From the IMG/VR virus record IMGVR_UViG_3300037042_005486, positions 1 to 43,443 of that record: a stretch of 43,443 bases of DNA; one strand, given 5' to 3'. The notes below the pieces were generated by a model, which was not told the origin of the DNA, ran no database searches, and saw only the letters and a program-made list of their open reading frames with translations. A program made the position numbers and the translations under genes. Below, in pieces: positions 14,257 to 43,173 of the stretch; positions within the stretch are counted from its first letter, which is position 1, and each line of letters begins with the position of its first letter. The DNA is from a virus.

Positions 14257-14277
14257 ATGTGCCTCCAAATAATTATA

Positions 14278-17937: not shown

Positions 17938-17954
17938 TTTTATACCTCTTTACT

Positions 17955-25384: not shown

Positions 25385-25398
25385 TACTTGCTCCTAGC

Positions 25399-28300
25399 CT
25401 ATTCGTCAGTACAATCTTTTTTCTCAATAACTTTAAGTACATCAATCTCTAAATATCCACCCGAACCAATTTTTGTTATAGGTTTTATAACATCTAGGTT
25501 ACTTGGGTTTTTATTTACATATATTTGTATGTCTGTACCAAAATCTGTCATTCTTGTAAACTTCTTTTTATATTCTGTAGATAATACTTGAAATATTCCA
25601 TTTAGTTCACTACTTCTTTCGCTTCTTTCTTTCCACCAAATACAATTTGTATTTTCGCTTTGCGGAATTGGAGCGTGCCCATATTTCCAATTATATTTTA
25701 ATTCTCCGATTGTTTTAACTGAAGTTATTGGTGGTTCTGCCCCTAATTCTATTGAAGGCAATTTCCATGCATATTTATTTCTTTCTAATACATGACTTTC
25801 AACAATATCAGAAATATCTGGTGAAAAGTCTGCACTAGCGGGAATTAATTGATATGTCATTTTTGTTATAGCACTATCTATCCACTTAAAATAATCAACA
25901 TATTTTTCTAAGTCTGGAGTGTTTGAAATTCCTTCAAAGAACATCTGTCTTAATTTTACTAATTCTCTATATTCTCTCTCGTAACGGTATTGTGGCTTAC
26001 CAATTATATTATTAAATTCAGTTATTGTACCGAAAAACTTTATCATTTCTTCGGAAATGGTTTGATACATACTCTTTTCTAGAGCAAAATAATAATTTAC
26101 CGGTCTGGAATCTCTTGTGAATATTTCGTCGTCCTGATTTAAAATACTTATTAAATCAGAATTCATCATATTTTCTGGCAGTCTATGTTTCGCTATAGAA
26201 ATGTAGCCATTTTCTACCATTTCATTATTGTTTCTAAAGAAAAAATCACCAACAGCAGTATAAGTTTTATTAGCTATTTGTCCAATAATCCCATAATTAT
26301 TTGTCAAAGAACCACTAGAAATATCTAAAACTGTAAATTTTGCATCAAATGAATTTGTTGGTCCAATACCAGAACCATTATCTGAACCTGTTACAAGATT
26401 AAAATCCCAATGTAAAGCCAAAGTCTTATCTTGTGGAAGTTCATTCAAACCGCCACTATATAAAGTTTCAATATTTGAAATTGGAGAACTCTGTCCAAAG
26501 ATTGTTGGATCTTTTGCGTGTTGTTTTAAAATATCATTATCAAGATAAGAAAGCCAATATCTTACACTTGATAATTTTATATCACTATTGTGTATTATTG
26601 AGCCTGTAAAGTTTTGTCTATGACAGCCGGCATATATTCTTTTTGAATCAGCAAAATAATTTTCTGCTATCGCTTGTGGTATGGAAGCTGTTAAATATAT
26701 CTCATCTTGTATGAAATCTTGTATTGTATTTATTGCATAAAACTCAAATAAATAATCGCCAACATTAGCACCAATAACTTTTAAACTGTTTGGATATTTT
26801 TCATGTTTTAATTTAACAAAGATGTTCCATTTTTGATTTGTATATAAATCTCTTATCAATGAAGAAGTTAAATTTAATCCTAAATAAGATGAAGTTAAAT
26901 GAAAATAACCATCACTTGAATCCATATCTGGCTTGACAATATAAAGCTCTAAATTAGAAATATCAGAGCCATACCAAGTTGTATCAGCTGGATTAGTATT
27001 GTCTGCAGAGTGGATGCCAAAAATAGAAGAAGTTAAGAAATTTTTTGGAAAGTAAAACTTTTCAGATGGTGAGAAATTTAATGGAATCACTATTTCTGCT
27101 TCTAGAGTTGAGCCGTGATAAGATAATTCTGTGTCTCCAAGTATATAAGAAGTAGAGTTGGCATCTACACTTGAAGTCATTTGATATATGGTACCTTGAA
27201 CTCTGTCTTGATCGTTTAAGTTTATAAGTTTTTTCTTATAATAAGTATTTAAAAATCTATCGTCAAAAGTATAAACAGAATCATTTGAATATATATTAAG
27301 TTTTATTAATTCTTCATCAATACCAAAACATCTTAAAAGATTTCTTATTGATTTTTCTGTTCCTTTTGATTTCTGAATGTATGATAAATTGTTATAGATA
27401 TTTTGATATATATGATTTTTTATATTAAACAATCTTTCTTCATAAAGAACATTTTCATTTCTATTACCTAAATTTTCTAATATACTAGAATTGGTGAAAA
27501 GATCTTGCGTCATAAACCCCATAGACTCAAGGAGTTTAATTGCATATGGAAAAGCTCTTCCATTTCTATAAGACACTTCTTTTATTGAAGGAAGATATTT
27601 TATTTTAACAAATAATTCATCAAAATATGAACCAATTATTTGTGTTAATTCATACAATTTATTGCTATCATTGTTTTGATCGTCTTCAACTATCCACGCT
27701 GGAACAGTGTAATAAATCATAGAATTATTATCATTATCGTGTAGTGTTCCTAACTCTTGCTTTTCTGTCAAAAGAGATTGAACATCCGGGTGAGTTAGAT
27801 ATATTACAGGGTCTTTAAATTCTTTAGGGGCGGCTGCTGAATCAACTATTGCCGATTCTGTTGAGCGACTTCCAGAAGTATATCCAACCCAAAAACCGTT
27901 AGAAAATCTTCCAGAATAATCTAAAATTTTATTATCATATTTTGTATCAGTTGTAGTTTTATCATAAATTCCTTCATTAAATTTATAATATATACCTAAA
28001 TCTGTATTTGCAGTATCTGTGTTTGTTCCACCATTAACATCGGTAAACCAGAAGCGGGAAATTTCTTTTTCTGTTCTCTTGGATTTCCAATATCTAAATT
28101 CATCTAAAGAACCTGATAGTTTTCCAAATCCTAATGTTGCATTTCCTCCGCTAACTTGAGTTCCGAGTGAACCTATATGACCGAGCATCGGACCATAAAC
28201 TCTTGATATCAAGCTGCCGGTTATAGCTTTTTCATTCAATATACCATTTAAAAATAATTTAAACTCTATATTGCTTCCGCTATTGATAGCGGATAAAGAA

Positions 28301-29085
28301 TAATGCTGCCAATTTCCATTATTAATGTTTAAATTTTGACCTATAGAAAAATTTGAAATACCACTTGAGCCAGAAGATAATTCAATAAAAAATTTATCCT
28401 CTTCTCCTGATACACCGGGATGTATTTCTATTCTAAATCTTCCATAATCATTTCCGAAACTGCCACTATTCCAAAGATCAAATATTACTTGTTTGCTACT
28501 TCCACTTAAATCATCTTTTTTTAGCCAGAACTCTATAGTGAGACCTGCATTTCCATCTAAAAGTAAATTACTTTCTCTATTTTCAGTTGAATCTAAAATA
28601 TTAGAAGTTCCAAATAATTTAGAAACCTTGAAAGAATCCATACTAGGCGCAGTATTTGGACCACCTTTTATTAATATGTATTCTTTATTTGTTGGTTCAG
28701 AATAACCATCAGTGGACAAAGAAGAACTAGTACCATAAACAAAGCCAACATTTATATAACCATTATTTCTTGGATATTCATTATCAAATATATAATTTTG
28801 TAAATCAGAAGAATTTTTTGTCCATTTTAATTTTTCTGCAGAACTTCCATCATATGGATATTTTTTTGCTATTGATTCAATAGCGTCTGTGTAGTATTTG
28901 TTTGCAGATCCAAAGAAAGCAAAATTCTTTGGATCAGTATAATCAATTTCTGGTTTTATTAATTTTCGTTCTTCTAATTCTTGAACTATATATTCGCTAG
29001 ATTCTACATCTTTTGCTAAATCTTCAAAATTAGTAGAAGTTAGAATTTTTGTTGATTTTTTACCAAACAAATCTTTTAAAGACAT
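25399..29085 (-). CDS. Giant baseplate-region protein with LamG domains
   Basis: This 1228-residue protein begins MSLKDLFGKKSTKILTSTNF, then DPKNFAFFGSANKYYTDAIE and PYDGSSAEKLKW, an N-terminus I recall from large virion proteins of environmental T4-like phages. Residues about 150-347 form a LamG domain (LTIEFWLKKDD, WQHYSLSAI, GSLDEFRYWKSKRTEKEISR). A second LamG-like unit lies near residues 740-880 (KWNIFVKLKHE, IYAGCHRQNFTGS, LSSVRYWLSYLDNDIL). The C-terminal third is helical (EYRELVKLRQMFFEGIS, YVDYFKWIDSAITKM). Its ATG overlaps the upstream stop by 1 base (TAATG). Position two genes after gp6 makes it a positional candidate for a gp7-like wedge protein, but no homology to T4 gp7 is visible to me. 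Confidence 0.78.
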   Translation of the reverse strand: MSLKDLFGKKSTKILTSTNFEDLAKDVESSEYIVQELEERKLIKPEIDYTDPKNFAFFGSANKYYTDAIESIAKKYPYDGSSAEKLKWTKNSSDLQNYIFDNEYPRNNGYINVGFVYGTSSSLSTDGYSEPTNKEYILIKGGPNTAPSMDSFKVSKLFGTSNILDSTENRESNLLLDGNAGLTIEFWLKKDDLSGSSKQVIFDLWNSGSFGNDYGRFRIEIHPGVSGEEDKFFIELSSGSSGISNFSIGQNLNINNGNWQHYSLSAINSGSNIEFKLFLNGILNEKAITGSLISRVYGPMLGHIGSLGTQVSGGNATLGFGKLSGSLDEFRYWKSKRTEKEISRFWFTDVNGGTNTDTANTDLGIYYKFNEGIYDKTTTDTKYDNKILDYSGRFSNGFWVGYTSGSRSTESAIVDSAAAPKEFKDPVIYLTHPDVQSLLTEKQELGTLHDNDNNSMIYYTVPAWIVEDDQNNDSNKLYELTQIIGSYFDELFVKIKYLPSIKEVSYRNGRAFPYAIKLLESMGFMTQDLFTNSSILENLGNRNENVLYEERLFNIKNHIYQNIYNNLSYIQKSKGTEKSIRNLLRCFGIDEELIKLNIYSNDSVYTFDDRFLNTYYKKKLINLNDQDRVQGTIYQMTSSVDANSTSYILGDTELSYHGSTLEAEIVIPLNFSPSEKFYFPKNFLTSSIFGIHSADNTNPADTTWYGSDISNLELYIVKPDMDSSDGYFHLTSSYLGLNLTSSLIRDLYTNQKWNIFVKLKHEKYPNSLKVIGANVGDYLFEFYAINTIQDFIQDEIYLTASIPQAIAENYFADSKRIYAGCHRQNFTGSIIHNSDIKLSSVRYWLSYLDNDILKQHAKDPTIFGQSSPISNIETLYSGGLNELPQDKTLALHWDFNLVTGSDNGSGIGPTNSFDAKFTVLDISSGSLTNNYGIIGQIANKTYTAVGDFFFRNNNEMVENGYISIAKHRLPENMMNSDLISILNQDDEIFTRDSRPVNYYFALEKSMYQTISEEMIKFFGTITEFNNIIGKPQYRYEREYRELVKLRQMFFEGISNTPDLEKYVDYFKWIDSAITKMTYQLIPASADFSPDISDIVESHVLERNKYAWKLPSIELGAEPPITSVKTIGELKYNWKYGHAPIPQSENTNCIWWKERSERSSELNGIFQVLSTEYKKKFTRMTDFGTDIQIYVNKNPSNLDVIKPITKIGSGGYLEIDVLKVIEKKDCTDE

Positions 29086-30512
29086 TATTTATCTATCCTA
29101 AATTTAAAAGTTTCTTTTACTTCGTAGAAAGAATTATTATATTCAAATCCAAAAAATACTTTATAAGCATATCCTGGCTCAAATAATTTCATATCTAAAT
29201 CAAAATAATTTCCTTCTCTATCATATGAAGTTAGGGTGTGTTTATAACTTCCTGTTCCATATGCAATCACTTCATAATTATCGGCTATTCTAATAACTCT
29301 ATAATATAAATTTTCTATATTTGTTTTTTCAGGTTCATATGCAGCAACGTGATAAATATTAGAATCCCATAACTTATTTTTTACTTCAACTCTCATTCTT
29401 GCAAATTCAGAATTTTTATAAGATTGTTTCAGTTGAGGCATCGTCAATATATATTCTGGGATTTCCTTGTCGTCTGTAGCATCATAAGTATTTGTATATA
29501 TTACGGAGCCCGTATATAGTTGTGTTCCACTTAAGGTTGACCAAACATCATATAAATATTCGTAAGTTCCACTAATACCCACAGAAGCAGTATAGGTTCC
29601 CTCCGAATAATATCCTCCAGTTATGGAAGTAGCGGATGTTCCCAACAAAACTAATGGAGGCCCAATTGGTCCACTTGTTAGACTTCCGGAATAAAGACTA
29701 ACCAGCAATATTCCGGTTGATACAGATGGTATGTTTTTGAAATTACCTCTAACACTATTGATTAAAAATAATGTATTTAAATTTTCTTCAGATGGAAGCA
29801 AATCACTGCTTAAGTAAAATGAATTTCTTCTATCCTTGATTGAAGAATTGCTTCTTACTTCTATAATTGGTCTTTTATAAAAGAACTGACTTCTTCTGGC
29901 AAAGAATTTTTTAGTATAATAAGATTCTGTATCTGCCTCAAGCAAAGAAGATAAAGATATTAACAAACCATTATTTGGAGTAATGTTTGAGATCCAATTC
30001 TCCACTAAACCAGTTATATCAAGCTCTAAATCGTCAGAAGCATTTTCAATTAAATATTCTATTGAAGAAGATGGATATACATCTCCTCCTTGACTTATCC
30101 AAGCAGAGTTAGAAGAAGCACTAATCCAATTAGCAACACCAATATCAGAATATCCTTCCATGTCCAACCCAATGCCTTCTTGCCATGCTCCGGAGACGGG
30201 AGAAATTGAAACAGTTATATTATCTGGGGTTGAATCGCTATTTGAAGCATTACTTAATTTTAATATAAACTGACAGCTACCACTTTCAGAAATTATTTTA
30301 TTATTTCTATCTGATATTATATCTGATATTGGAAATTGAATCAAGATTCTTGACTTTTCATATGAACTGCTTGTTACTTGTCCATATATAGAAAATATCT
30401 CAAGAACATCTGACGCTCCCATGTTTGATAAGGTGCCACGGGTTGTCTGATTTTGCTTAAAAGCATCAGTTATTGTTGTATCTTTTTCTGCTATATATCT
30501 TTTAATAGACAT
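29085..30512 (-). CDS. DNRLRE-like structural protein
   Basis: I set the start at ATG 30512 (MSIKRYIAEKDTTITDAF), with GGAGA upstream; a TTG at 30515 is less likely. The ATG overlaps the gp6 stop by 1 base (TGATG). The ~475-residue product has the N-terminal pattern of the DNRLRE family: YIAEKDTTI, then SRILIQFPISDI, PVSGAWQEG, the tract IGVANWISASSNSAW, LDITGLVENWI and GLLISLS. DNRLRE modules are beta-sandwich domains of extracellular and virion proteins. The remaining ~250 residues hold beta-rich segments (TYTASVGISGTYEYLYDVWS) that look immunoglobulin-like. Adjacent gp6 and LamG proteins place it on the baseplate. Ligand is unknown. Confidence 0.75.
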   Translation of the reverse strand: MSIKRYIAEKDTTITDAFKQNQTTRGTLSNMGASDVLEIFSIYGQVTSSSYEKSRILIQFPISDIISDRNNKIISESGSCQFILKLSNASNSDSTPDNITVSISPVSGAWQEGIGLDMEGYSDIGVANWISASSNSAWISQGGDVYPSSSIEYLIENASDDLELDITGLVENWISNITPNNGLLISLSSLLEADTESYYTKKFFARRSQFFYKRPIIEVRSNSSIKDRRNSFYLSSDLLPSEENLNTLFLINSVRGNFKNIPSVSTGILLVSLYSGSLTSGPIGPPLVLLGTSATSITGGYYSEGTYTASVGISGTYEYLYDVWSTLSGTQLYTGSVIYTNTYDATDDKEIPEYILTMPQLKQSYKNSEFARMRVEVKNKLWDSNIYHVAAYEPEKTNIENLYYRVIRIADNYEVIAYGTGSYKHTLTSYDREGNYFDLDMKLFEPGYAYKVFFGFEYNNSFYEVKETFKFRIDK

Positions 30513-32314
30513 CAACTAATTTCTCCATATATATCAGAAACTGGGAATCGTATTTCAAAAATAATATTTTTTGGAGCCTCTATATATCTTCCGTCTCTAG
30601 ACATAAATCTATTTACATCAAAAAATACATCAGAATAATTTAATCCATTTTTCTGTTCTACTTTTACATTCTTAACGTCATTTACGCCTTTTACTTTTTT
30701 AAGTATATTATAAATATCAGTTATAAAAAATGCTTCTCCAATAAATTTAACTTTAGAATATTCATTTTGAAGAGCAGATACACAATCTCTAAGAACTTGG
30801 GAATTATCCGCTTCCAAATCAGAGACAACACTAAATTTAATTGATAAATTAACTATTTTTGCATCCAAAATGTCTATAGTGTCATTTATCATTTTATTTT
30901 TATTCAGCCAAACTTTTACATTTTCTTTAATTGACTGATTTGAGTTTGTTAGTTTACCAGTAGAATCTTCCGACACTACATATATGTTTATATTTCTTTT
31001 AAATGAATCATAATCTCTAACTATAGATGCTCTCTTGATACTTCCAAATTCTGGTGGCATATTATAAAGAAGAGCTTCATAATCTTTTTCTGTCACTGCT
31101 CTGTTTTGAGAACCAAAGGTATTATATACTTTAAATTTTAATTCTTCAGATGTAACAAGCGGAGTATCGCCAACTATTGGCTCTTCATTGTTTACTTCAA
31201 GAGAAGAGCGCACAGAATTTATTTTATTTGCATCTAAATTTCTTGAATCACCAAAATCAAATAAAGAACTAGCAACTGAATTTAATGTTCCGGCGCCAGT
31301 GTTGACGTTGTCAGAACTATTGGCTCTCGCAACGATTCTTAAAGTAGTATTTGATGGAACCACGCCTAGTTTATCGGATTTTATTAAATTATTTGGATCA
31401 AAATCTCTATCAGAAATATAATTTTTTCCATATAATTCTAATGTAACGGCAGAAGGATCTATCAGTTCTGAGTTATAAGTTTCGCTTGAAGCATCTCCAG
31501 TTCCAAACTGTAAAAAGGTTTTATCCTTTTCTCTTGTTGTGACAAATCTTCTAGGAACAGAAAATGGTTTTAATATACTTTTTACTTCTGCGTTTTCATC
31601 ATTATTATCACGATTTAAAATGGAACGATAAACAACATCTTGACTCAAATAATCAACTTCGTAATATTCATTTCCATCTAAGTCTATTACGGAAATAATC
31701 TCTGTTAGATAATCAATATTAACTGGTATTTTTAAAAATCTCTTGTATTCACCAACATCATAAAATGTTTGAGTTAGATATCCAGATTGTACTTTGCCAT
31801 GTGCCTTAATTGCATAAGTTAGCGGGAGGCCAGTTGTTTCGTTTACTGTGCCAACGACAATTTCATTGTCATCTCTATTGAAATATACATCTTCAGCTAG
31901 AGAAAAAGAAACACCAGTTTTATTTTTAAATGTACTATTTTTTTTCAAAATAGGAGCATAATTTAAATCAGGACCATCACCAAGAAGATTTGCAGGAACA
32001 AGGATGAAAAATGTCGCGATACCGTGTGATGAAGGATTTTCTGTATATTTAAATCCAAATGGCTTTGATAATTTAAGAATATTGTCAAATTCTGATGCTG
32101 TATCTAAAAATGTTTCATTAGCTGCATAATCTAAATAAAAAGATAAATTATCACCAACATATGCAACAGTATCAAGCATCAGACTTCCAAAACCTACTTC
32201 GCTAAAATCTTTATAAGTATCTGGATAATATTTTTTTGCATGCTCTACAAGAGCGTCTTTTATTGACTGAAAGTCTCTAGCCAAATAATCAATTGGTATA
32301 TTTTTCTTGGGCAT
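30512..32314 (-). CDS. gp6: Baseplate wedge protein, T4 gp6/baseplate J-like
   Basis: This 600-residue protein matches the T4 gp6 / baseplate assembly J-like family, the wedge component forming the inner baseplate ring and driving sheath contraction. Evidence is the N-terminus MPKKNIPIDYLARDFQSIKD, SEVGFGSLMLDTVAYVGDNL then SFYLDYAANETFLDTA and ILKLSKPFGFK at residues 40-90. VTEKDYEALLYNMPPEFGSI then KRASIVRD falls in the second half, with a C-terminal INDTIDILDAKIVNLSIKFS region. The length is close to T4 gp6 (660). AGAGGA is well placed and a CTATTTATA element lies 15 bases before the ATG. gp25 follows the canonical neighbour order just upstream. Identity is strong. Confidence 0.93.
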   Translation of the reverse strand: MPKKNIPIDYLARDFQSIKDALVEHAKKYYPDTYKDFSEVGFGSLMLDTVAYVGDNLSFYLDYAANETFLDTASEFDNILKLSKPFGFKYTENPSSHGIATFFILVPANLLGDGPDLNYAPILKKNSTFKNKTGVSFSLAEDVYFNRDDNEIVVGTVNETTGLPLTYAIKAHGKVQSGYLTQTFYDVGEYKRFLKIPVNIDYLTEIISVIDLDGNEYYEVDYLSQDVVYRSILNRDNNDENAEVKSILKPFSVPRRFVTTREKDKTFLQFGTGDASSETYNSELIDPSAVTLELYGKNYISDRDFDPNNLIKSDKLGVVPSNTTLRIVARANSSDNVNTGAGTLNSVASSLFDFGDSRNLDANKINSVRSSLEVNNEEPIVGDTPLVTSEELKFKVYNTFGSQNRAVTEKDYEALLYNMPPEFGSIKRASIVRDYDSFKRNINIYVVSEDSTGKLTNSNQSIKENVKVWLNKNKMINDTIDILDAKIVNLSIKFSVVSDLEADNSQVLRDCVSALQNEYSKVKFIGEAFFITDIYNILKKVKGVNDVKNVKVEQKNGLNYSDVFFDVNRFMSRDGRYIEAPKNIIFEIRFPVSDIYGEIS

Positions 32315-32342: not shown

Positions 32343-32732
32343 TCATGAGGTTATAATATTACCATTTGATTCTATAGTTAAATTTACATCTGTTCCTAGT
32401 GGAATGATAAAATATGTTATAGTAATACTCAATAAAGAGCCATCAATATTAGTATTACCATAATCAATATTTTTAATAGCTATATATGGTGCATAAATTT
32501 GAATTTGATTTTTTAGTCTTTGTTCAAAATTTAATTTTAAAAAAGGACTATAATTTTCAAACAATAATCTCTTTATTCCTACTCCAAAATTACCATCCAT
32601 TATTCTTTCACCTGGATTGGTAAGGAGTAACATTAAAAAATTTTGACTACTTAATGTCTTTAAGTCGCTTATTAAAGTATAGCCTTGTTCAGTGCCCAAC
32701 TTTAACGGTAATTTTGGTCCATATCCAGCCAT
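32343..32732 (-). CDS. gp25: Baseplate wedge protein, gp25/GPW family
   Basis: This small protein belongs to the gp25/GPW family, which shares the fold of lysozyme-like baseplate proteins and nucleates sheath assembly. Evidence is NFLMLLLTNPGERIMDGNFG then VGIKRLLFE, the family core LLxTxPGERxxxPxFGxGIxxLLFE, followed by RLKNQIQIYAPYIAIKNIDY. I place the start at ATG 32732 (MAGYGPKLPLKLG), with TAGGA 9 bases upstream, giving 129 residues, close to T4 gp25 (132). A longer reading from GTG at 32759 would overlap the upstream stop and add nine unsupported residues. Next to gp6, as in most contractile-tail phages. Confidence 0.93.
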   Translation of the reverse strand: MAGYGPKLPLKLGTEQGYTLISDLKTLSSQNFLMLLLTNPGERIMDGNFGVGIKRLLFENYSPFLKLNFEQRLKNQIQIYAPYIAIKNIDYGNTNIDGSLLSITITYFIIPLGTDVNLTIESNGNIITS

Positions 32733-32755
32733 ATAATAATTTCCTACAATAATTA

Positions 32756-35700
32756 TCACACACCATATTTTTTATAGCCAGATAAGTCAAAACAATAATT
32801 TTTTAGTTCCTCTTTTATACTATCATTTTCTATATTTAAATCTAAATTTTCTGAGAATTCTAAAGATAACAACAACAAATCGGCACCCAATAAAACCATG
32901 CCTGGTATAGTTAATGGAGGCCCAACACCTATACCTACCGGTGGAACTCCAAAAACTGTTATTGGTAATTGAGCCATTGAATATATCGCTAAAGGACTTA
33001 GTGCTAATGGTAACTCAGAAGGTACAGGTGGACCACCAAAAGGATTTGGTATTTGAGATGCCAAACTTAGTGATAGTTTTACTGCGTTTCTCAATATTAA
33101 AGCAAGACTTATGTTTGGGTCTGTCATCTGACAGTAATACTGAAGAACATAAATCGCAGCTTTTAATGCTGATTTGGCAGCTAATGGAGCGTTAAATTCC
33201 TTAAAATATTCTGTCGTAGACATTCTTTCTCTAATATCTTCTAGTTCACTATTATTGTAGATTGAAGTAAACTTTAAATGAATAGAATTCATTATTTGCT
33301 TTCTAATGCTACGGAAAGGAGTAACGAATGTATCTCCAGAAAGTATTGAAATACTTGAAAGTATGGTTAGATTAGAAAGTAAATTTTCATTTGTAAATAT
33401 AGAATAGAAACTTTTTAACTCCTCGCTACAAGAAATTTTTAATTTTAATAAATTAGTCAATTCATTTGACTGTTCTATTTTTAATTTTGGTAAAAATTCC
33501 AACATATCTGATACAGTTTTTATATTAACTGTAGATACATTTATAGATTCTTTTATAATTGGAAATGCATTTATTACTCCAAATTTTCTCTTTCCATCTT
33601 CTGTTGGCTCTCCAATAAACGGAATTATATATGTTTTTTCATACTCATCTTTTCTAATTCTAGACGAAGGTTCTAATCCGATATCTATTAAAAAATCTTC
33701 TAAATAAAACTTGGCTTTTCCTTGAGAGCATAAAGAATCAAAATTTTCCCTAATTGTTTTACTTTGTTCATATTGAATTGATGTCTGTTCTTTTAAATCT
33801 ATATCTGGTATGTATACGAGTCTCATTCCATATTTTATTTCTTCTGAAAAATACTGATTTAAATTTTTATTTTTTTCAGGTGCGACACTCAATAAATCTT
33901 GAAATTTTGAAAATGGTTGTGCGCCATAACAATTTAGCTGCTTTTGTTTCAAAGCTAAATCAAATGTATTCCAACCTTCTGTTTTGACTTCTGGAACATT
34001 TACATAATGTTCTATTATCAAATTTGGACCTGGTTTTAATTTTTCTTTCTGAAGTTCTGTAAAGAGTCTTTTATCGCTGTCGACAGTGGTTACTTCTTGC
34101 AATTCAGTTTTTATTAAAAGCTCAGGAATTAACATTGATAAAAAGTCTTTATCTTCTACATTTTGCTGCTCATCACTACACTGCTCTGATAGAGAGTTTT
34201 TTATTTTTTCATTTGTAGAAGTTAAATAAGACAATTTATCAAATATTACAATCATTTCATTGTAGCAAATGTTTCTTAATTGTAATATTAATATTTTATT
34301 ATATTTTTCTTTTAATTCTGATTTTATACAAGAAATTTGATTTTCAACTTTTTTCTTGTATTGCTTATCTTGCTCGTCTAATGGACTTTCTGTGTATAAT
34401 TTTCCTAAATAGGAATTCATTATATCCATATCTTCTTCAAGCAAGGATATTTCAGTTTTAAGTTTTTTTATTTCTTTAAAAAGCTTACTATTTTCTGGTT
34501 TGTTTAATTCTTCAGAAAATATAAAACTATGTATATAATTTATATTATTTTGAGTTAATTGAATTAAACTATCTTTATTTAAAGAATTAAACTTATAATT
34601 TATTTCATTATATAATGTTTGTGCCACATAAGTAGGCAACATTAAATCATCAATTAATTTTTTATTATACTTAAAAACTCTTAGTGGAAAAATAGCTCTC
34701 ATGCAAACTTCCACACAAGCTGTTCTTATTAAGCTTATGTATAACCCGTCTATTATGCCAAACTTTAAATAGTTATCATCATCTTTCAGCATTTGTTCAA
34801 GAGTTTTTGTATCTACTATATCATTTTTTCTTTTATCTATTATTTGAGAAATAAATTGCTCTAATTCATATTTTCCAAATAATCCAGGATCTATTTTTAG
34901 ATCTTTTTGTTTTTTTGTTGGCTTTGGACAAAAATTGATATATTTCATTGGCGTATCAATATTGGGGCTCACCATTGGAGGAAGAGAGTTATTCTGCATC
35001 GCCAAAGACAATCCTGGAAATACCGAGTCTAGTCCGTCTTTAATTCCTGTAATATACTTTTCTTTTTGTAAAGAATCTAGATTGATAGGTTGTAACAATC
35101 CATCTTTCGTAATAGAATTAGCTATTTTTTCATATATTAAGGACAAAAAAGTATTATAAGAATCTGATGTATATTCAGCAAATTTTTTATCAAAAGCAAC
35201 TCTAACCGGTTGTTGTAAATTTGAATATTCTTGAATTATGCTGCTTTTTAGTATTTCTTTTAATCTTTCTTTTGTGTCTAGAGTTTCTTGATAGATTGAA
35301 TTTATATCAACATTTTCGTTATTTATTTCAAAATTAAATTTAACTATATTTTGGTTATTGACATTTCCTTCGTATAATTTTATTGTATTTTTGTTTTTAG
35401 AAAGAGTGTTTTCAATTTTCCAACAACTATCATTAAAAGAATGAAGAGCAAATTGAGAATTAGTTGTACTTGAATATCCTTTTGTACCGGTCAAAGATAG
35501 AGAAAGAGTATCGGTATCAGAATTAATAGACAGATTTTTAGAAGATTTATTAAAATTTTCAACAAATAAGCCGCCATATACAAATTTTTGCTCTTCTATT
35601 TCTATTGTATCTGGAGCTGTACCTGCTACGTATCCACCTTTATTAATTAAATCGTTGTATTCTGGATTTTCATATTCTTTTGGATCTTCAGATGATTCTT

Positions 35701-38700
35701 GTTTTAAGAATTTTTTTACTTCTCTTTTAACTGGTTTTTTAAGAACTAAATTAGAATAAACTTGGTTGCATCCATCTTTGAAATTATTTGCAATAATTTT
35801 AAAATTAATATCTACAATTTCTGAAGTTGCTTTTTCAACTGCTGAAATACTTTTTCCATTTGGCAATCTACCAATCAATAATGGCTTGAAAACTTTATCT
35901 TCTATTTTATTTTTTAATTCACCTGGAGAACAGCTTAAAAGATCTTGTATTAAATTTCTGTAAATATCATCAGAACCTACAACAAAAGGAACACTTGCTG
36001 CTATCGCTGTTGCTGCTTGATCTGCTGGAGTGTTTTTTGGTTCATAAATAAATTCAGGAGTTGTTGGATCTAGGCATTGCAAATTACTTTGATTTATATT
36101 ATAAGAAGAATAATAACTAGACATTGCAACCATCTCTTCTCTTACTAAATCCAATCCGGATGCTTTAGCTAGATAACTAAAAATTCCAGATAATCCACCT
36201 GGGACTAAAAGATATGTTAATTCTGAATGTTGTTTTCTGACGTATTCATCTGCTTGTCTTAGATCTTCTTCATTTGGACTTCCTGAAATCATTCTAATAA
36301 AAGCATCTGGCTGCATAATTTTACACAACTCAGAAATCAACTCAACTAAAGATTGTTTTATTTCTAATTCAGTTACAGAAGAGCTTTTTGTTGTACTCAA
36401 TATCTGTTCAGCATTATGACTGAACAATTGTTTTGTTTTAGATTTTGCTGTCAGATCAGTATTTCCAAAAACACCGAAATCTAAATTTATATTTAATGCA
36501 GTAAATTCTTCGGCTTTTAACGGGGGATTTAAAGATTTGGCTATGTTTATAAATGATTTATGATATTCAATTGGATCTATTTGTGGATTTTTATTTACAA
36601 AATCGTCTAAATCAAACTTACCTCTTCCAATCTGATTTAATGCCGATAAGGTAGCACCGGTTACACTTCCATTTGCGTCTCCAGTAAGAGCCGCACTTAT
36701 AAGACCCTTTATCCCTCCGCAAGTCAATAATTCATTTAATATTTTTAATATAAAAGCTACGATTGAATCAAGAATGATTTTTACAACCGTTAAATCTAGG
36801 CTTAATTTTACTTCTTGAAATAAATCTACTGTTGGAAATTTTGGTAATTGTAGAAAATTAAACGTCTCAAAACTAATGTTAAATAAATCTACAATACTAC
36901 ACAATATATCAACATTCAACCCATATCTTTCCATGAGATCTAGAAAATCATCAATCATCTTCATCTCTTCTGGGTTCATTTCTTTGCGGGCCATGGCCCT
37001 ATCTTCATCACTTTGAGATACGGATTCTTGTTCTGATTTTAGGTCACGATATTCTTTCAATTTATTTTCATATTGCTGCTGTAATGTATTTGTTGGATCG
37101 CCATTTTTGGATACTTTTTGATCTGCAATATCTAATGCTTTTCCCGGTTCTGTTCTTTTATCTAACTCGGCAAAAGTTATTTGCTTTCTTTCGTTATTTT
37201 TTATTGCATTTTCTAAGTCTCTCAACTCATCAAGAAGTTTCTTTTCTCTTTCATCTTTTATATTATTTATCTTAAATTCTATTAGTGCATTATAAAATTC
37301 AGTATAAACACTTTCGGGAAAGGCTTTCTTTAAAATGTTTTCTAATTCCGAGAATCTGAATCCTCTCAAGATGTCTCTGCAATTTCCTGCTTTTGGTAAA
37401 TAACAAGTTTGAAATTCTCTCAACAAGCAAGATAAATTAGTTCTAGCAAAAACTATATCTTGTAATTGATTTAGACTTTCAATACCCTGATTGGTGGTTA
37501 AATCACTTAGTTTTTTTATTATCTGTTCTAAAGAAATAGTATCTGCAAAAGAATCTTTTCTTGCTTCATATGGCCCATAAAAACCATTATTTAATAAGGT
37601 TTTTCTAAATAATTCATTTGAATTAGGATCTCTTATTAATTTAGATGACGGCGTATCTGCGCTGGATTCATAATAATATTTGCTATGCTGTAAAATTATT
37701 CTTTCGGCCTTATCACGACTTAAATTTTCTCTTGTTGAATCGTAAAAGGAGAGAGCATCTGGATATATATTTGGTAAAAAATATAAACTTGGAAAATTAA
37801 TAAAGTTAAAAGCTTTAGGATTTGAGTCTACAAGATTTTTATTTTTTGAAAACGGAGAAGCATCTTTAATAACATTATCATTTTGATATTTTTGCTTATT
37901 AATTTCAGTATCTGGTTGTAAAGATTGCGGAGTTGGACAATAAAACGGATCTATTTCAATTATATTATTATCAATATAATCTAAATCTGATAAAATTGCT
38001 AATATTGTAGGATTAAAGAAATCAAAAGAATTCTGTTCTCCAATTATATCTGCTCCGCCAATTACTGCCACGAACTTATTTGAAGTGTCCATTGAACTAT
38101 AAGGACTACCAAGTTTTAAAAATTGCTTATTAGTGAACTCAATTTTTAAAGGAGATAAAGCAGTTTTTTGTTCTTCAATAATTGATTCTTCTGTATCTCT
38201 TAAGTAAGTTAATCTAAAAAATAGATTTTCTTTTTTTAAATTTTTAGATTCAGAAGCAGAGTATATTTTTTCTTCAAGAAAATTATAACTTGTATATTTT
38301 GATTTAAAATCATTTAAAAAACTAAGAGCATTAATTTTTTCTTGTAATGCTGAACTCAGTTCTTTTCTTATGATGAAATCTAACAATTTCATTCTTAATT
38401 GAACAATTATTTTAAAATCATATTCTTGCTTTTTTGAAATTGAATCGTTATATGCTTTTTCTCCAATAACATTTATGATTTCTTGTAATTGGTATCCAGA
38501 ATCAACAAGCGAAGGAAAGGTACCAAATGGAAATATTTCTTTTCTAGATGGGGTGCTATCCGTGTATGATTCAATTAAATCTTCGGCATTTTTTAATCCA
38601 GGGATTTTTTCTGGTAATGAGTATAAATATTCTTGTTTTCCATTTTGACTTCCAGAAATACTTCCGGAAGTATTTGTAGAAATAGAATTTTTTATATAAA

Positions 38701-39316
38701 GTACTTTTTCTTTTACTTCTCTAACATATTCTTCAACAGATACTTCATAATTTGGATTTAGCGAAGGATCTAAATTTATATATGTATCGGCTAGTGAATC
38801 TAATTTAGTTAATAAAAAAGTCATATTGCTGTAATCATAAACAGCAGCTGAAACGTTTTTTAAATAAGTCTTTATTTCTTCTTCCTCAAAAATATCTATT
38901 TTTAAACTTTTATATGGCTTGGTCTCTAATAATTGTAAAATTGTGTTATTTGGATCTGTATTTGTGGCAGCAAATGCATCAAACTTTGAACCAAAATCGT
39001 CTATTGGTTCAGCGATAATTAAGTCTGAATTTGTTACTAACCCTTGCTTTATTAAGTTTTCTTTTGTTTCAGAAAATCTTTGTAAATAAACTTTTTTAAC
39101 AAGAATTGATAAACTTTCTTTATATTTTCTTTTATCTAATGAAGATACAATAGAATCGTAGCTTTGCTGTGGATTGATAAATTTTTTACCATCATCATTC
39201 AAGTCTATAGAACAATTTTTTAAATATTTTACTAATTTATTTACTTTTTTGTCAATAGTAGATAAATCAAGTTCAAAGCTTGTGGAAATTATATTTTTTT
39301 GCGCTGTTGTTCTCAT
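32756..39316 (-). CDS. Giant 2186-residue virion protein, baseplate hub region
   Basis: This is the largest gene in the window and fits no family I can name. It starts at ATG 39316 one base after the upstream stop, with no clear ribosome site, so coupling to the preceding gene is likely. The N-terminal ~150 residues are helical. A charged coiled coil spans about 690-775 (ERKQITFAELDKRTEPGKAL to LKEYRDLKSEQESVS). A hydrophobic stretch lies near 830-880 (SLDLTVVKIILDSIVAFILK then ILNELLTCGGIKGLI). A second coiled coil is at ~1610-1675. A Pro/Gly-rich hydrophobic patch lies near 2090-2153 (VFGVPPVGIGVGPPLTIPGM then VLLGADLLLLSLE). The hydrophobic parts could be membrane-active during DNA delivery. 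Position between hub and wedge genes suggests a hub-associated or tape-measure-like role. Confidence 0.72.
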   Translation of the reverse strand: MRTTAQKNIISTSFELDLSTIDKKVNKLVKYLKNCSIDLNDDGKKFINPQQSYDSIVSSLDKRKYKESLSILVKKVYLQRFSETKENLIKQGLVTNSDLIIAEPIDDFGSKFDAFAATNTDPNNTILQLLETKPYKSLKIDIFEEEEIKTYLKNVSAAVYDYSNMTFLLTKLDSLADTYINLDPSLNPNYEVSVEEYVREVKEKVLYIKNSISTNTSGSISGSQNGKQEYLYSLPEKIPGLKNAEDLIESYTDSTPSRKEIFPFGTFPSLVDSGYQLQEIINVIGEKAYNDSISKKQEYDFKIIVQLRMKLLDFIIRKELSSALQEKINALSFLNDFKSKYTSYNFLEEKIYSASESKNLKKENLFFRLTYLRDTEESIIEEQKTALSPLKIEFTNKQFLKLGSPYSSMDTSNKFVAVIGGADIIGEQNSFDFFNPTILAILSDLDYIDNNIIEIDPFYCPTPQSLQPDTEINKQKYQNDNVIKDASPFSKNKNLVDSNPKAFNFINFPSLYFLPNIYPDALSFYDSTRENLSRDKAERIILQHSKYYYESSADTPSSKLIRDPNSNELFRKTLLNNGFYGPYEARKDSFADTISLEQIIKKLSDLTTNQGIESLNQLQDIVFARTNLSCLLREFQTCYLPKAGNCRDILRGFRFSELENILKKAFPESVYTEFYNALIEFKINNIKDEREKKLLDELRDLENAIKNNERKQITFAELDKRTEPGKALDIADQKVSKNGDPTNTLQQQYENKLKEYRDLKSEQESVSQSDEDRAMARKEMNPEEMKMIDDFLDLMERYGLNVDILCSIVDLFNISFETFNFLQLPKFPTVDLFQEVKLSLDLTVVKIILDSIVAFILKILNELLTCGGIKGLISAALTGDANGSVTGATLSALNQIGRGKFDLDDFVNKNPQIDPIEYHKSFINIAKSLNPPLKAEEFTALNINLDFGVFGNTDLTAKSKTKQLFSHNAEQILSTTKSSSVTELEIKQSLVELISELCKIMQPDAFIRMISGSPNEEDLRQADEYVRKQHSELTYLLVPGGLSGIFSYLAKASGLDLVREEMVAMSSYYSSYNINQSNLQCLDPTTPEFIYEPKNTPADQAATAIAASVPFVVGSDDIYRNLIQDLLSCSPGELKNKIEDKVFKPLLIGRLPNGKSISAVEKATSEIVDINFKIIANNFKDGCNQVYSNLVLKKPVKREVKKFLKQESSEDPKEYENPEYNDLINKGGYVAGTAPDTIEIEEQKFVYGGLFVENFNKSSKNLSINSDTDTLSLSLTGTKGYSSTTNSQFALHSFNDSCWKIENTLSKNKNTIKLYEGNVNNQNIVKFNFEINNENVDINSIYQETLDTKERLKEILKSSIIQEYSNLQQPVRVAFDKKFAEYTSDSYNTFLSLIYEKIANSITKDGLLQPINLDSLQKEKYITGIKDGLDSVFPGLSLAMQNNSLPPMVSPNIDTPMKYINFCPKPTKKQKDLKIDPGLFGKYELEQFISQIIDKRKNDIVDTKTLEQMLKDDDNYLKFGIIDGLYISLIRTACVEVCMRAIFPLRVFKYNKKLIDDLMLPTYVAQTLYNEINYKFNSLNKDSLIQLTQNNINYIHSFIFSEELNKPENSKLFKEIKKLKTEISLLEEDMDIMNSYLGKLYTESPLDEQDKQYKKKVENQISCIKSELKEKYNKILILQLRNICYNEMIVIFDKLSYLTSTNEKIKNSLSEQCSDEQQNVEDKDFLSMLIPELLIKTELQEVTTVDSDKRLFTELQKEKLKPGPNLIIEHYVNVPEVKTEGWNTFDLALKQKQLNCYGAQPFSKFQDLLSVAPEKNKNLNQYFSEEIKYGMRLVYIPDIDLKEQTSIQYEQSKTIRENFDSLCSQGKAKFYLEDFLIDIGLEPSSRIRKDEYEKTYIIPFIGEPTEDGKRKFGVINAFPIIKESINVSTVNIKTVSDMLEFLPKLKIEQSNELTNLLKLKISCSEELKSFYSIFTNENLLSNLTILSSISILSGDTFVTPFRSIRKQIMNSIHLKFTSIYNNSELEDIRERMSTTEYFKEFNAPLAAKSALKAAIYVLQYYCQMTDPNISLALILRNAVKLSLSLASQIPNPFGGPPVPSELPLALSPLAIYSMAQLPITVFGVPPVGIGVGPPLTIPGMVLLGADLLLLSLEFSENLDLNIENDSIKEELKNYCFDLSGYKKYGV

Positions 39317-39317
39317 A

Positions 39318-40280
39318 TTAGTTTGTTTTATTGTAATAACTGTTTATATATTTGTAAGGATTCTTTGTTAAATAGTTTTTCCTTAAGTTTTCTATATTTG
39401 GTACTTTTTTTGTAGCAGCATCAAATATTGTTAATTTTTTTATATTTTCATCAGATTCTATTATGTCAGCAATCAAATCCGGATCGGTATAACGAGGTAA
39501 CGGACCTTGCGAAAAAATATCAAAATGTGTGTGCCCCATTAGTGAATTGTATATTTTAGATTGTTGTATTGTGATTTCTTGTATTAATGAATGTAAATTT
39601 GTTATTTCATTTAAAACTTCATTTAAAAATTCTTGAAGATTTTTTCCCAAAACTAATGGATGTAATTGAGTTTCTACTTCAACAGAATTATTGGCTATCA
39701 AGTGTATTCCACTATAATCTCTTTTGGGGTGAGACGGGGGCATAGTTTCTTTGTTAGCTGGAAGCGGGGTATCGTTCTGATCTATGCCGGTTATTATCTT
39801 AACAGTTCCGCGAGAAAATAATCTTACCTCGTCGGCCTTTAGAGCTATAGCTGACGCATTTTCTGCTCTAGGATCTCTTATCCTTGCACCAAAATTAGAA
39901 TCAACATTTGTTTGTTCGCTAATTTGTATTAAAGCAGAATCATAATAAAATTTAGGACTAAAAGTCATCTTGCTGGCCGTTAATGGTGGCGGCTTATTTT
40001 TGATGGCAGTACCCATTCCAGATACGAGCGTAATAGTAGAATTATAGGTTGCTTTTGCTATTTCTGGCGTATTTTGTGTGGCACCACCAAGTATTATATG
40101 AGTATTTAAATCCGATGTTATTACATTTTCATCTAAAGCTCTTTCATAGTCTGCTGGCTTTTTTAAATTTACGTAAATAGAGGGTTTTAATTTACTTTGT
40201 TTATCTATTTCTATATCAATATCTCTTTTTTGAGATTGATTTATTATTGGACTCAAGGTATTTTCGCGGCTAGCTACCAT
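39318..40280 (-). CDS. Baseplate hub/puncturing protein, gp5 beta-helix-like
   Basis: This 320-residue protein resembles the C-terminal needle region of T4 gp5-type hub proteins of environmental T4-like phages. Around residues 115-200, DSALIQISEQTNVDSNFG, ASAIALKADEVRLFSRGTVK and GIHLIANNSVE fit a beta-helix with IxLxA and VRLxxRxxxKI repeats. LVLGKNLQEFLNEVLNEIT follows, then a histidine motif GHTHFDIFSQGPLPRYTDP near 249-267 that could bind a metal at the spike tip. ATG 40280 follows AAGGA. The C-terminus continues 50 residues past that motif. It would sit at the tail tip and puncture the outer cell layers. Lysozyme is absent here; the neighbouring gene at 40306-41832 may supply wall cutting. 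Confidence 0.78.
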   Translation of the reverse strand: MVASRENTLSPIINQSQKRDIDIEIDKQSKLKPSIYVNLKKPADYERALDENVITSDLNTHIILGGATQNTPEIAKATYNSTITLVSGMGTAIKNKPPPLTASKMTFSPKFYYDSALIQISEQTNVDSNFGARIRDPRAENASAIALKADEVRLFSRGTVKIITGIDQNDTPLPANKETMPPSHPKRDYSGIHLIANNSVEVETQLHPLVLGKNLQEFLNEVLNEITNLHSLIQEITIQQSKIYNSLMGHTHFDIFSQGPLPRYTDPDLIADIIESDENIKKLTIFDAATKKVPNIENLRKNYLTKNPYKYINSYYNKTN

Positions 40281-40305: not shown

Positions 40306-41832
40306 TTATGAACTTAATTCTTGTTCTGAAGAAGTTTCATCTGGATTTTGTTCAAAAGAAGTTTCTTCTTCTACAGTTTTTACTTGCGATGTTGGATTGC
40401 TTGAATCCCACTTTCCTTCATCTGGGTCTTTTAAATTTGACTCATCAACCAAAGTATATCCGAGTTCCTTTGGATCACCGCCACTATGCACAGTGTTAAT
40501 AAAACGATTCCATTCTGTGGGTGGCATTGTTTGACAGCCGGCACTATATGGAGATGTTTTGCCGCCAGAATGAAACAACATTCCCGGATCGCCCCTACTC
40601 TCATTACCATCATTAAACAAGCCATCATCATTAGTGTCTCTTTCAAACAATCCGGATGTACCAAATTGCATTCCCAAAACTCTACCTCTTTTCGGGCTAA
40701 CATACGTTCTATATCTCATATATCCAGGCTTCAATCTTCCTAAGTGTGGCATATTCAGATCTACTTTTCTCTGTTCAACAGGATCCATGTAAAGACCGAT
40801 AGGTTCTGTGTTTCCAGTATACTGATCAACTCTTTTGTTGCCACTAGCGTCTTTCCATATTAAATAAAAAACGTCATCATAAGCTCCCATTCCTCTGTTT
40901 ATTCGCGTATTTGTAGATAAACGAAGTCCAACAATATTTTTTTGATTTGCACCAGCTCTAAAGGTGCCTCCATTTAATGGAATAAATGCAGAAAAATAAT
41001 CATACTTTTCAGTTTCAGTTTTTGACGCAATATAATCTCGTATCTTGCTGGGAACTCCCGCAATAGGTTCGGCAAATGGGCCAGCACTAGAGCCACTAAC
41101 AATTTGTGCAAGTAATGCAGCAATATTTGCAGTGGTTTGTTGAGCTATTGTTTCAAGCTCAGAAGCTGCCTTGAGAAACCTTTCTCTAAATGATTTCAAT
41201 AAATTTTTCAGTTCTTCAAACCCCTCTTCAAATATATCATTATCATACATTTTTTCATAATATCCGGATATTTTGTGTCCAGATGAAATATGTGGTTCTT
41301 GAAAATAATGAATCCTTACTTTTGTACCGGGCAAAGGCGGGGCGCAAGTTGTTCCATTTGTATATAAAGGTGCAAAAGTAGAATGCGTTGCAACGCAATC
41401 ATAATATTGTTTAATTATATTGATTTCATCAAAACTTTTAGGCTTATCCTTAAAAAAAGAAGAAGAATTTTTATCTAAATTTTTTAGTTCAATCATTAAA
41501 TCTTCAGGATTTATTTTTGAACCTTCATCGTGAATTGGATCTCTTATTTTAAGTAAATAATCTTCTAAAACTTCCCCAATTTTTAAATTCAAATGAGGAA
41601 GAGTATAACGAGTTTTTAATTCACCAACAGGAGGCCAATTTTCAAGAACAGTTGCATTTTCAACAACTCTTGAAATCGGTACTTGCGACAACAATTTTGC
41701 TGTCTCATTTAAAGTTTGGAATCCTGATGTTGGATTGTTGTTTAATGTAAACGGATGCTTTGAAGTAGTGGGTAAAACAGAATTTTGCTGTCTCTTTATA
41801 TCTTGTCTAGATATCGTCTTGTCATTTGCCAT
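40306..41832 (-). CDS. Hub/spike protein with L,D-transpeptidase-like C-terminal domain
   Basis: This 508-residue protein has two recognisable parts. Residues about 150-190 (CAPPLPGTKVRIHYFQEPHI) resemble the OB-fold start of gp5/VgrG-type hub proteins. Residues 297-448 form a peptidoglycan-active-looking module: QKNIVGLRLSTNTRI, AYDDVFYLIW, GYMRYRTYVSPKRG, an acidic loop RDTNDDGLFNDG (398-409), then GMLFHSGGKTSPYSAGCQTM and EWNRFI. H421 and C433 stand where L,D-transpeptidase (YkuD-like) domains have catalytic His and Cys (HxxxxxSxGC). Such enzymes form or cut bonds in peptidoglycan; a virion copy would act at the wall during entry. The acidic tail (residues 485-508) is low complexity. ATG start with GAGGAG 10 bases upstream. 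Substrate and activity are unproven. Confidence 0.8.
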   Translation of the reverse strand: MANDKTISRQDIKRQQNSVLPTTSKHPFTLNNNPTSGFQTLNETAKLLSQVPISRVVENATVLENWPPVGELKTRYTLPHLNLKIGEVLEDYLLKIRDPIHDEGSKINPEDLMIELKNLDKNSSSFFKDKPKSFDEINIIKQYYDCVATHSTFAPLYTNGTTCAPPLPGTKVRIHYFQEPHISSGHKISGYYEKMYDNDIFEEGFEELKNLLKSFRERFLKAASELETIAQQTTANIAALLAQIVSGSSAGPFAEPIAGVPSKIRDYIASKTETEKYDYFSAFIPLNGGTFRAGANQKNIVGLRLSTNTRINRGMGAYDDVFYLIWKDASGNKRVDQYTGNTEPIGLYMDPVEQRKVDLNMPHLGRLKPGYMRYRTYVSPKRGRVLGMQFGTSGLFERDTNDDGLFNDGNESRGDPGMLFHSGGKTSPYSAGCQTMPPTEWNRFINTVHSGGDPKELGYTLVDESNLKDPDEGKWDSSNPTSQVKTVEEETSFEQNPDETSSEQELSS

Positions 41833-41833
41833 T

Positions 41834-42121
41834 TCATTCTGTCTCCTCTATTTCATTATAGAGACTCTCTTTATCTTCTTTATTTAAATCCCCATACTTA
41901 TCTTCATCGGTCTTTTTCATTAAAGATATCAGTTTAACAAGCTGCTCATTTGAGCGTTGAAGAGTTTCTAGATATTTTGCTGCAACCATTCCAGTCGTTG
42001 CATAACGGTCTTGTTGCTGACCAATATATTGGGCGACATCTTCTAGTAATTCTTGGGCAGCTTCACGATCTTTGTTTATATTCTCTATTGCTTGATTTAT
42101 TAATTCGTCTTTAGATTTCAT
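41834..42121 (-). CDS. Small helical protein of unknown function
   Basis: This 95-residue protein is almost wholly helical and charged: MKSKDELINQAIENINKDRE, then QELLEDVAQYIGQQQDRY and VAAKYLETLQRSNEQLVKLI. It has no cysteine pair, membrane segment or enzymatic motif. It lies between the late sigma factor and the hub gene, and its stop overlaps the next gene's ribosome site region, indicating coupled translation. The pattern (AKYLETLQRSNEQLVKL) is one I recall from small proteins near late or packaging genes in environmental T4-like phages. It could be a packaging or late-transcription accessory factor, but no family assignment is safe. No clear ribosome site precedes its ATG. Confidence 0.65.
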   Translation of the reverse strand: MKSKDELINQAIENINKDREAAQELLEDVAQYIGQQQDRYATTGMVAAKYLETLQRSNEQLVKLISLMKKTDEDKYGDLNKEDKESLYNEIEETE

Positions 42122-42140: not shown

Positions 42141-42872
42141 TTAGATTTTTCCGTCATCCCATGTTCTTTTAAATTGTTTGTATTTTTGTCTTATTTTATT
42201 GAGATTGTTGACAACTTGCTTTGTATTTAAGTCGGTAATTTCTCTCACGTATAAATAAATTGCTTTTTTATTAAAAATTTCTATTGAATCGGGATTTTGC
42301 AACAAAACACATATCGCATCTAATACTTTTTTCTCGTTTACCTTTAAATCTAATTTTTTCCATTCTTCTATTTCTGTCCATAGATGATTCCAAAATTCAT
42401 CTGTTTCTCTTTTATTATCAGTTTCATTATATATAACTAAATTATCATAATCTAGTTCTTTTTGATGTTCGGCGTCATCAAGAAAAAGTTCTTTTTTGTT
42501 TTGACGACTTACTTTTTTAACTTTATGAATAAACCAATTTTTAGTTATAACGCTAAAATAACTAAAAGCTTTGGAACCCTTAGAGGGATCAAATTTCTCA
42601 AGTATTGTTGTTATCCAAATTTTACATTCTTCTTTTAAATCTTCTATATTCGGAAGAGTATTAAATTTATATGTAAAAACAATCTTGTTGACCATTTCAT
42701 TAAATGCTGGGCCAATAAGAGATCTATATAGATCTTGCCTTATTTTCGTGTCCTTTGTTGAAGAATACAATATTATGGCGTTTTCATGTTCCTGAGTAAA
42801 ATACAGTTTTTCCTGTTGCTGTGGAGAGTTTTTCTTCGCTCTTCTTGTCCTCGGTTTCGCTATTTTCGTCAT
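42141..42872 (-). CDS. gp55: Late-transcription sigma factor, T4 gp55-like
   Basis: This protein is a T4 gp55-type sigma factor that redirects host RNA polymerase to late virion-gene promoters, normally with the sliding clamp and a gp33-like coactivator. Diagnostic sequence is EECKIWITTILEKFDPSKGS then KAFSYFSVITKNWFIHKVKK, the conserved sigma region 2 core of the gp55 family. The C-terminal part is helical (EKKVLDAICVLL, LNKIRQKYKQFKR). Start: GAAGAGGATT precedes two adjacent ATGs (42875 and 42872); 42872 has the better 6-base spacing. A GTG at 42902 would place the AGAGG directly against the start and is less likely. About 89 bases overlap the upstream gene. At ~243 residues it is longer than T4 gp55 (185). 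Confidence 0.9.
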   Translation of the reverse strand: MTKIAKPRTRRAKKNSPQQQEKLYFTQEHENAIILYSSTKDTKIRQDLYRSLIGPAFNEMVNKIVFTYKFNTLPNIEDLKEECKIWITTILEKFDPSKGSKAFSYFSVITKNWFIHKVKKVSRQNKKELFLDDAEHQKELDYDNLVIYNETDNKRETDEFWNHLWTEIEEWKKLDLKVNEKKVLDAICVLLQNPDSIEIFNKKAIYLYVREITDLNTKQVVNNLNKIRQKYKQFKRTWDDGKI

Positions 42873-43173
42873 CATAATCCTCTTCAATAATTTCTTGCTC
42901 ACCCTCTAATAATTCCATCACTTCTTTATATTTCTTCATATAATTTCGGAAATCTCTTGAGTGACGAATAAGGTTTTTTAGAGTTTCATCGCCATAATAC
43001 ATTTCAAGTTCATAGATAAAATTAATATGTTGATCAAATTCATCAAGTCTTTCATATAATTCAATTAAATTATTAGAAACAAAATTTAATCTAAATACCA
43101 ACTTATAACAAAACCACCCCAGTAGAGTGGTTGAAATTGCTAATAATATCGCTAATAATACTAATATTGTCAT
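42784..43173 (-). CDS. Membrane-anchored acidic protein of unknown function
   Basis: This 129-residue protein has an N-terminal hydrophobic span (MTILVLLAILLAISTTLLGW, continuing FCYKLVF), then a helical region (LIELYERLDEFDQHINFIYE) and a strongly acidic tail (EIIEEDYDDENSETEDKKSE). It overlaps the FmdB-type gene stop by 4 bases (ATGA). Its last ~89 bases overlap the start of the sigma gene in another frame, so the acidic C-terminus and the basic sigma N-terminus share DNA. An inner-membrane anchored coiled-coil, perhaps spanin-like or host-membrane modifying, is possible. No family is recognised. Confidence 0.65.
   Translation of the reverse strand: MTILVLLAILLAISTTLLGWFCYKLVFRLNFVSNNLIELYERLDEFDQHINFIYELEMYYGDETLKNLIRHSRDFRNYMKKYKEVMELLEGEQEIIEEDYDDENSETEDKKSEEKLSTATGKTVFYSGT

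Follow-up and report, generated by a model that had tools for sequence, protein, structure and literature searches.

Based on our analysis of the 43,443-base virus record IMGVR_UViG_3300037042_005486 of IMG/VR (the window, i.e. the whole stretch of DNA under study), we suggest that the gene at 40306..41832 on the minus strand encodes a tail hub/spike-type protein of 508 aa, and that residues ~297-467 of this protein are probably a YkuD-fold cysteine L,D-peptidase which opens peptidoglycan at entry. This ORF, the gene order around which is shared with relatives, begins with an N-terminal module (residues 1-262; 41047..41832) common to relatives with differing C-terminal domains, as judged from alignment A10 and BLAST. 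It is followed by the enzyme domain (residues 297-467; 40432..40944), delimited by a family profile, two predicted models and fold matches, and by an acidic C-terminal tail (residues 476-508; 40309..40407; alignment A5), all on the minus strand. The full protein had no Pfam, PHROG or PDB match at the sequence level.

The proposed catalytic residues, i.e. H421 (40570..40572, minus strand) as the general base and S430-A-G-C433-Q434 (40531..40545, minus strand) as the nucleophile motif, are located in the segment GMLFHSGGKTSPYSAGCQTM (residues 417-436; window 40525-40584). A first-pass annotation, made from the sequence alone, had named H421 and C433 as the catalytic pair of an L,D-transpeptidase-like domain, preceded by the motif VGLRLSTNTRI and an acidic loop, and all of these elements are present as it stated, the motif at residues 301-311 and the loop, DTNDDGLFNDGNESRGD, at residues 399-415. 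The range given there for the domain, 40489-40944, corresponds to residues 297-448 and falls inside the domain, but it loses the last strand, since the predicted domain extends to about residue 467 (in the full-length model this strand spans residues 456-463 and is followed by a short helix to 467). The D-x-N-x-D-G part of the loop (residues 399-410; 40603..40638, minus strand), recognized as a sequence pattern, is a putative element resembling a calcium loop, and 69 of the 157 family ORFs described below have a loose form of it ahead of the catalytic His.

The enzyme domain belongs, as a divergent member, to the large phage family phrog_3000/phrog_33083, and the match is not a chance one. A tblastn search of 50,697 phage records matched six of them, all at the C-terminal domain of the window protein, namely the crAss-like phages cr8_1 (E 5e-5) and cr271_1 (E 3e-4) and Bdellovibrio phage phi1422 (E 8e-5), each present twice in the records. 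These phages encode stand-alone proteins of 177-205 aa, each of which matches phrog_3000 (unknown function); both crAss-like proteins match phrog_33083 (endolysin) as well. Profile scans of viral contigs gave at least 103 confirmed relatives and then 268, with 80 kept each time. Single-sequence scans returned no relatives, neither for the hub and needle against viral contigs nor for the hub C-terminal part against genome contigs. Sequence searches of solved structures found no relative of the enzyme domain (the best hits in one search were nanobodies, E 0.2) or of the product of the needle gene at 39318..40280.

Among 30 family members scanned, phrog_3000 was found in 29, the missing one being the window domain, and the "endolysin" phrog_33083 in 20; the phrog_3000 model gave no match to the window protein. 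Nevertheless, when the 29 relatives (alignment A3 minus the window) were made into a profile, it found the window ORF (E 1.9e-21, 73.7 bits) as well as the hub of a related contig, L093 (E 3.1e-18). With this window-free profile and a threshold of E <= 10, none of 2100 shuffled window ORFs and none of the 104 other window ORFs of >=60 aa was reported, nor were the hubs of two further related contigs, L091 and L092.

At E <= 1e-5, the family profile matches 157 ORFs, the window ORF among them, from 156 sources (six duplicates were left out of this count, and L091, L092 and L094 are the sources that gave no match). Most are stand-alone proteins of about 200 aa, which is lysin size. His followed by S-x-G-C is present in 157/157, Gln directly follows the Cys in all except L040, and the residue two positions after the Cys (C+2) is T or V in 155 as counted. 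Loci of the first scan were chosen by a pattern that fixed the His and not the Cys, so for them the conservation of the Cys is an unselected observation; those of the second scan could be chosen by either His or GCQT. In alignment A7, H, S, G, C and Q are invariant in 41/41 sequences, which supports the catalytic pair proposed earlier. A further histidine, in the column of S379, is kept by 38/41 members and absent in the window and L093. In one family member PG_binding_3 was matched weakly, at an E of 0.0028 that does not pass its cut-off. Tlde1 (PF10908) was reported for 1/30 relatives, at E 0.11, and did not match the window domain. One viral contig contains a tandem pair of family copies (L065:854-1543 and 1488-2093), the first of which has a hydrophobic C-terminus, probably membrane-spanning, as is also seen in L030.

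The fold was approached by prediction. AlphaFold2 gave the full protein a pLDDT of 59.9 overall, with ten-residue blocks of 64-91 over residues 291-470, and the domain alone, modelled with 41 sequences, a pLDDT of 79.0 and a pTM of 0.79. When Foldseek candidates from the PDB were aligned with the full-length model using VIA-align 2, 21 of the 22 top rows were YkuD-type (Z 10.3 to 7.1), comprising Pgp2, Csd6, Bd1075, Ldts, YkuD, YcbB, DpaA and Tlde1a. The best row was Pgp2 (Z 10.3, rmsd 3.6, 127 aligned), followed by Csd6 and Bd1075; row 23 (Z 5.3) concerns a long helix in another region. For the domain model, 32 of the 33 top rows were YkuD-type at Z 7.8-5.4, with row 34 at Z 3.1, although values below 8 are modest alone and such a range can reflect a common arrangement. 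The sole exception in both lists is 4xxt, whose title is silent on its type, and titles not being explicit in every case, Pgp2, Csd6, Bd1075, YcbB and 1zat are structures which we partly take to be YkuD-type. Foldseek against the PDB gave no match at E <= 0.001 with either model, the best being Tlde1a (E 0.027); this protein occupied ranks 1 and 2 for the domain model (E 0.027, 0.078) and ranks 2 and 4 for the full-length model, with LdtMt1 at rank 3. In the BFVD, five viral proteins were matched at E < 1e-6, one of them named Lysin, and DUF5675 proteins appeared at ranks 6 and 14.

The C-terminal domain is predicted to have a YkuD-like fold, as had been proposed, and the best PDB matches of the models are L,D-transpeptidases and L,D-carboxypeptidases. 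In the YkuD arrangement, the His closes one strand and the Cys immediately precedes the next; the placement of H421 and C433 on the predicted strands agrees with this.

Comparison of sequence profiles tied the domain to a phage lysin family, through the 29-relative profile (E 1.9e-21), and not to L,D-transpeptidase profiles. PF03734 matched neither the window protein nor the enzyme domain. In hhalign, only the stretch around S-x-G-C aligned with E. coli LdtA-E plus DpaA (E 0.17) and with LdtA, B, C and E alone (E 0.092), and a non-catalytic stretch aligned with DpaA alone (E 0.0098, probability 4%); none of the three alignments was significant. The window does not have the motif H...(S/T)HGC with Arg at C+2: its S-A-G-C-Q-T shows the His, Ser, Gly and Cys, without the histidine of HGC and without the arginine. 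This arginine is present in E. coli LdtA-E, while DpaA, a hydrolase, has Ala at C+2. As there is no sequence-profile match, we label the domain "YkuD-fold" and not a PF03734 member; the relation to YkuD rests on the predicted fold and the arrangement of the catalytic residues.

The surroundings of the gene belong to a baseplate module. On the same strand lie a spike/needle-like gene (39318..40280; 320 aa), a gene for a 2186-aa protein of the same module (32756..39316) and, downstream of the hub gene, baseplate wedge gp25 (32343..32759; PF04965 E 1.5e-8, phrog_261 E 4.3e-17) and a gp6-like baseplate wedge protein (30512..32314; phrog_10646, phrog_6 and phrog_219, E 1.8e-15 to 5.1e-14), and upstream of the hub gene a late sigma factor-like gene (42141..42902; phrog_234 E 3.9e-6). 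With its GTG start taken as correct, the last overlaps the preceding gene (42784-43173) by 119 bases. In the needle, a 32-residue PLVLG..L..FLN segment aligns with a spike-like protein of a Flavobacterium phage (pairwise E 0.0012), and with that of Microcystis phage Mel-JY01 only at E 0.11. The gene thus lies between a spike-like gene and a late sigma factor, in keeping with the baseplate position assumed for it earlier, and gene order says that its product is likely to sit at the tail tip. No OB domain (PF04717) was matched in the window protein, the N-terminal model of which is poor, and for this reason the protein is named hub/spike-type by position; its N-terminal module may hold the OB fold of a hub, as a candidate only.

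Elsewhere in the window, the region 11254-29085 encodes several proteins of great length: those of 1004, 1219 and 1228 aa have no PHROG match at E 0.001, and a further one measures 2129 aa. The tail-fibre-like proteins at 3102-4598 and 5766-7922 have in common a C-terminal piece of ~100 aa (phrog_21978, phrog_21510), perhaps a common chaperone or tip. In Mel-JY01, a separate gene annotated as chitinase (L166:11924-12955) is located near gp25 and a spike-like gene, and may represent an alternative wall enzyme in this position.

The 2186-aa neighbour, used as a query, brought in four related contigs, L091, L092, L093 and L094; the needle alignment returned the same four and no others. Gene order round the hub gene is conserved in all four, with identities to the window of 83-90% for the wedge protein, 80-93% for the small gene at 41834, 74-89% for gp25, 73-87% for the sigma factor, 59-63% for the needle and 45-60% for the 2186-aa protein. 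The hub of L093 is 55% identical to the window hub from end to end and has the same enzyme domain. In L092, only residues 6-216 of the window hub are matched, and the C-terminus is a Peptidase_M15_3 domain (E 3e-12) that also matches the endolysin phrog_894 (E 4e-28). The hubs of L091 and L094, identical in sequence, are matched only at residues 26-262 and carry a third C-terminal domain, for which no convincing Pfam, PHROG or PDB match was found in L091. By eye this domain presumably has a CHAP/NlpC-type look, which we do not claim. The third-domain hubs are found at L091:7521-9059 and L094:4282-5835, and phage ctUh1700 (MW202637.1) has a similar stretch (E 6e-6) in a gap without annotation.

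BLAST matches of the window hub therefore end at residue 216 for L092 and at residue 262 for L091/L094, and the N-terminal module shows 34-59% identity among relatives. The acidic tail (EETSFEQ-like) stands behind the enzyme in the window and L093 and behind the exchanged domain in L091, and not in L092. One tail gene slot with differing wall enzymes, as read from these alignments of three distinct relatives, suggests that the phages swap their entry tool. The pattern looks like a wall-enzyme cassette and constitutes the strongest argument for function; another wall peptidase occupying the same slot in related phages also speaks for the earlier idea of a wall-opening peptidase in a tail gene.

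A second hub bearing the same enzyme is encoded by an unrelated 642-kb phage (LR756502.1). This 504-aa protein has the enzyme domain at its C-terminus, together with a Phage_base_V OB domain (PF04717, E 1.4e-5, over the cut-off) and the hub family phrog_430 (E 1.5e-14); hhalign of the window N-terminal module against it gave nothing. In a 42-row tree, the three hub enzyme domains do not form one clade, and forcing them together was 16.4 log units worse (p-AU 0.012). This favours two independent fusions of the enzyme to a hub, albeit with long branches in the tree (2.49 for the window/L093 stem and 1.63 for the second hub). More tentatively, with doubt slightly outweighing confidence, we propose for the contractile tails of this phage group a cassette site between the N-terminal hub module and the acidic tail, where different peptidoglycan peptidases would be swapped in, along with at least two independent entries of YkuD-fold L,D-hydrolases into hubs.

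In the proposed mechanism, sheath contraction would drive the spike through the outer membrane, whereupon H421 would activate C433 for attack on the stem peptides, the likeliest target being the L,D bond mDAP3-D-Ala4 or one related to it. Water would then free the acyl-enzyme, resulting in a local opening for the tube. Presence in the virion, catalysis, the preference of hydrolysis over transpeptidation and the bond cut are what we infer. Hydrolysis is the better guess because the window has Thr where many transpeptidases have the C+2 Arg. In DpaA, the arginine found in many LD-transpeptidases is replaced by the buried Ala145 (PMC10653827), its lack being tied to the amidase role in a review (PMC12729407), according to which YkuD enzymes include carboxypeptidases and endopeptidases. 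The suggestion that hosts with 3-3 cross-links are the target was dropped, as nothing in the analysis bears on 3-3 specificity. Such cross-links would not be required, since on chemical grounds a donor-side cut at mDAP3-D-Ala4 would also sever a 4-3 cross-link. If this is true, an L,D-hydrolase of this kind would open ordinary 4-3 cross-linked walls via the donor mDAP-D-Ala bond.

The same domain might instead be a transpeptidase or a D-amino-acid exchanger, remodelling the wall instead of cutting it. Its predicted fold is that of transpeptidases, and the best Foldseek match of the domain model, Tlde1a, has both carboxypeptidase and exchange activity (PMC9638812). We consider this unlikely, as the arginine that many transpeptidases have at C+2 is missing, the slot is occupied in a relative by a hydrolase family (M15), and entry, as we infer, needs a hole. 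That the fold is inactive and was retained for wall binding is very improbable: although the window has lost the histidine of 38/41 members, H, S, G, C and Q are all present both there and in L093.

A different objection concerns the placement of the enzyme, since the gene might encode a late lysin or a tail assembly protein within the baseplate cluster, outside the hub. The window protein has no OB or hub match and most family members are stand-alone and lysin-sized, but there is little probability of this reading either, given that the 262-residue N-terminal module and the acidic tail are kept while the enzyme changes, that the spike-like gene adjoins, and that another phage has an OB-domain hub with the same enzyme.

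YkuD lysins as such are already known, and rare among catalogued phage lytic domains. The PhaLP table gives 10 YkuD domains among phage lysins (PMC8310338), a virome endolysin table has YkuD n=3 (PMC5017753), and one YkuD case is given for a gut phage endolysin with 15 domains (PMC13284279). No YkuD domain in a phage baseplate hub was found described in the open-licence literature searched by title and start of abstract, which is no proof of absence. Our results tie a diverged family that numbers at least 157 ORFs, beyond Pfam's reach, to the YkuD fold. Moreover, with wall enzymes being exchanged in a single tail gene, the entry tool seems to be modular and often a peptidase, and such hubs offer a testable new source of cell-wall enzymes.

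The direct sequence relatives of the window domain are the phrog_3000/phrog_33083 proteins of crAss-like phages and phi1422, which have the same H...S-x-G-C-Q; the window domain is only 18-30% identical to them and is fused to a tail module, not stand-alone. The L,D-carboxypeptidases Csd6, Pgp2 and Bd1075 and the amidase DpaA share the predicted fold, used by them for hydrolysis, and DpaA, like the window, has no arginine at C+2. However, these are cellular enzymes, the window has SAGCQT versus SxGCxR, and no significant sequence-profile link connects it with the E. coli YkuD-fold enzymes. Tlde1a, a T6SS effector whose L,D-transpeptidase fold is altered and which is the top Foldseek match of the domain model, is delivered by a phage-tail-like machine, but is a separate secreted effector with about 11% identity and a weak E of 0.027. 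The hubs of T4 (gp5) and Anabaena phage A-1(L) (gp15) likewise place a wall hydrolase at the tail tip. Unlike the window protein, gp5 carries a lysozyme, whereas lysozyme, endoglucanase and peptidase domains, with no YkuD-type one among those described, are named for gp15 in PMC10966104, where its peptidase domain is stated to lyse host cells, a precedent for a peptidase in a hub.
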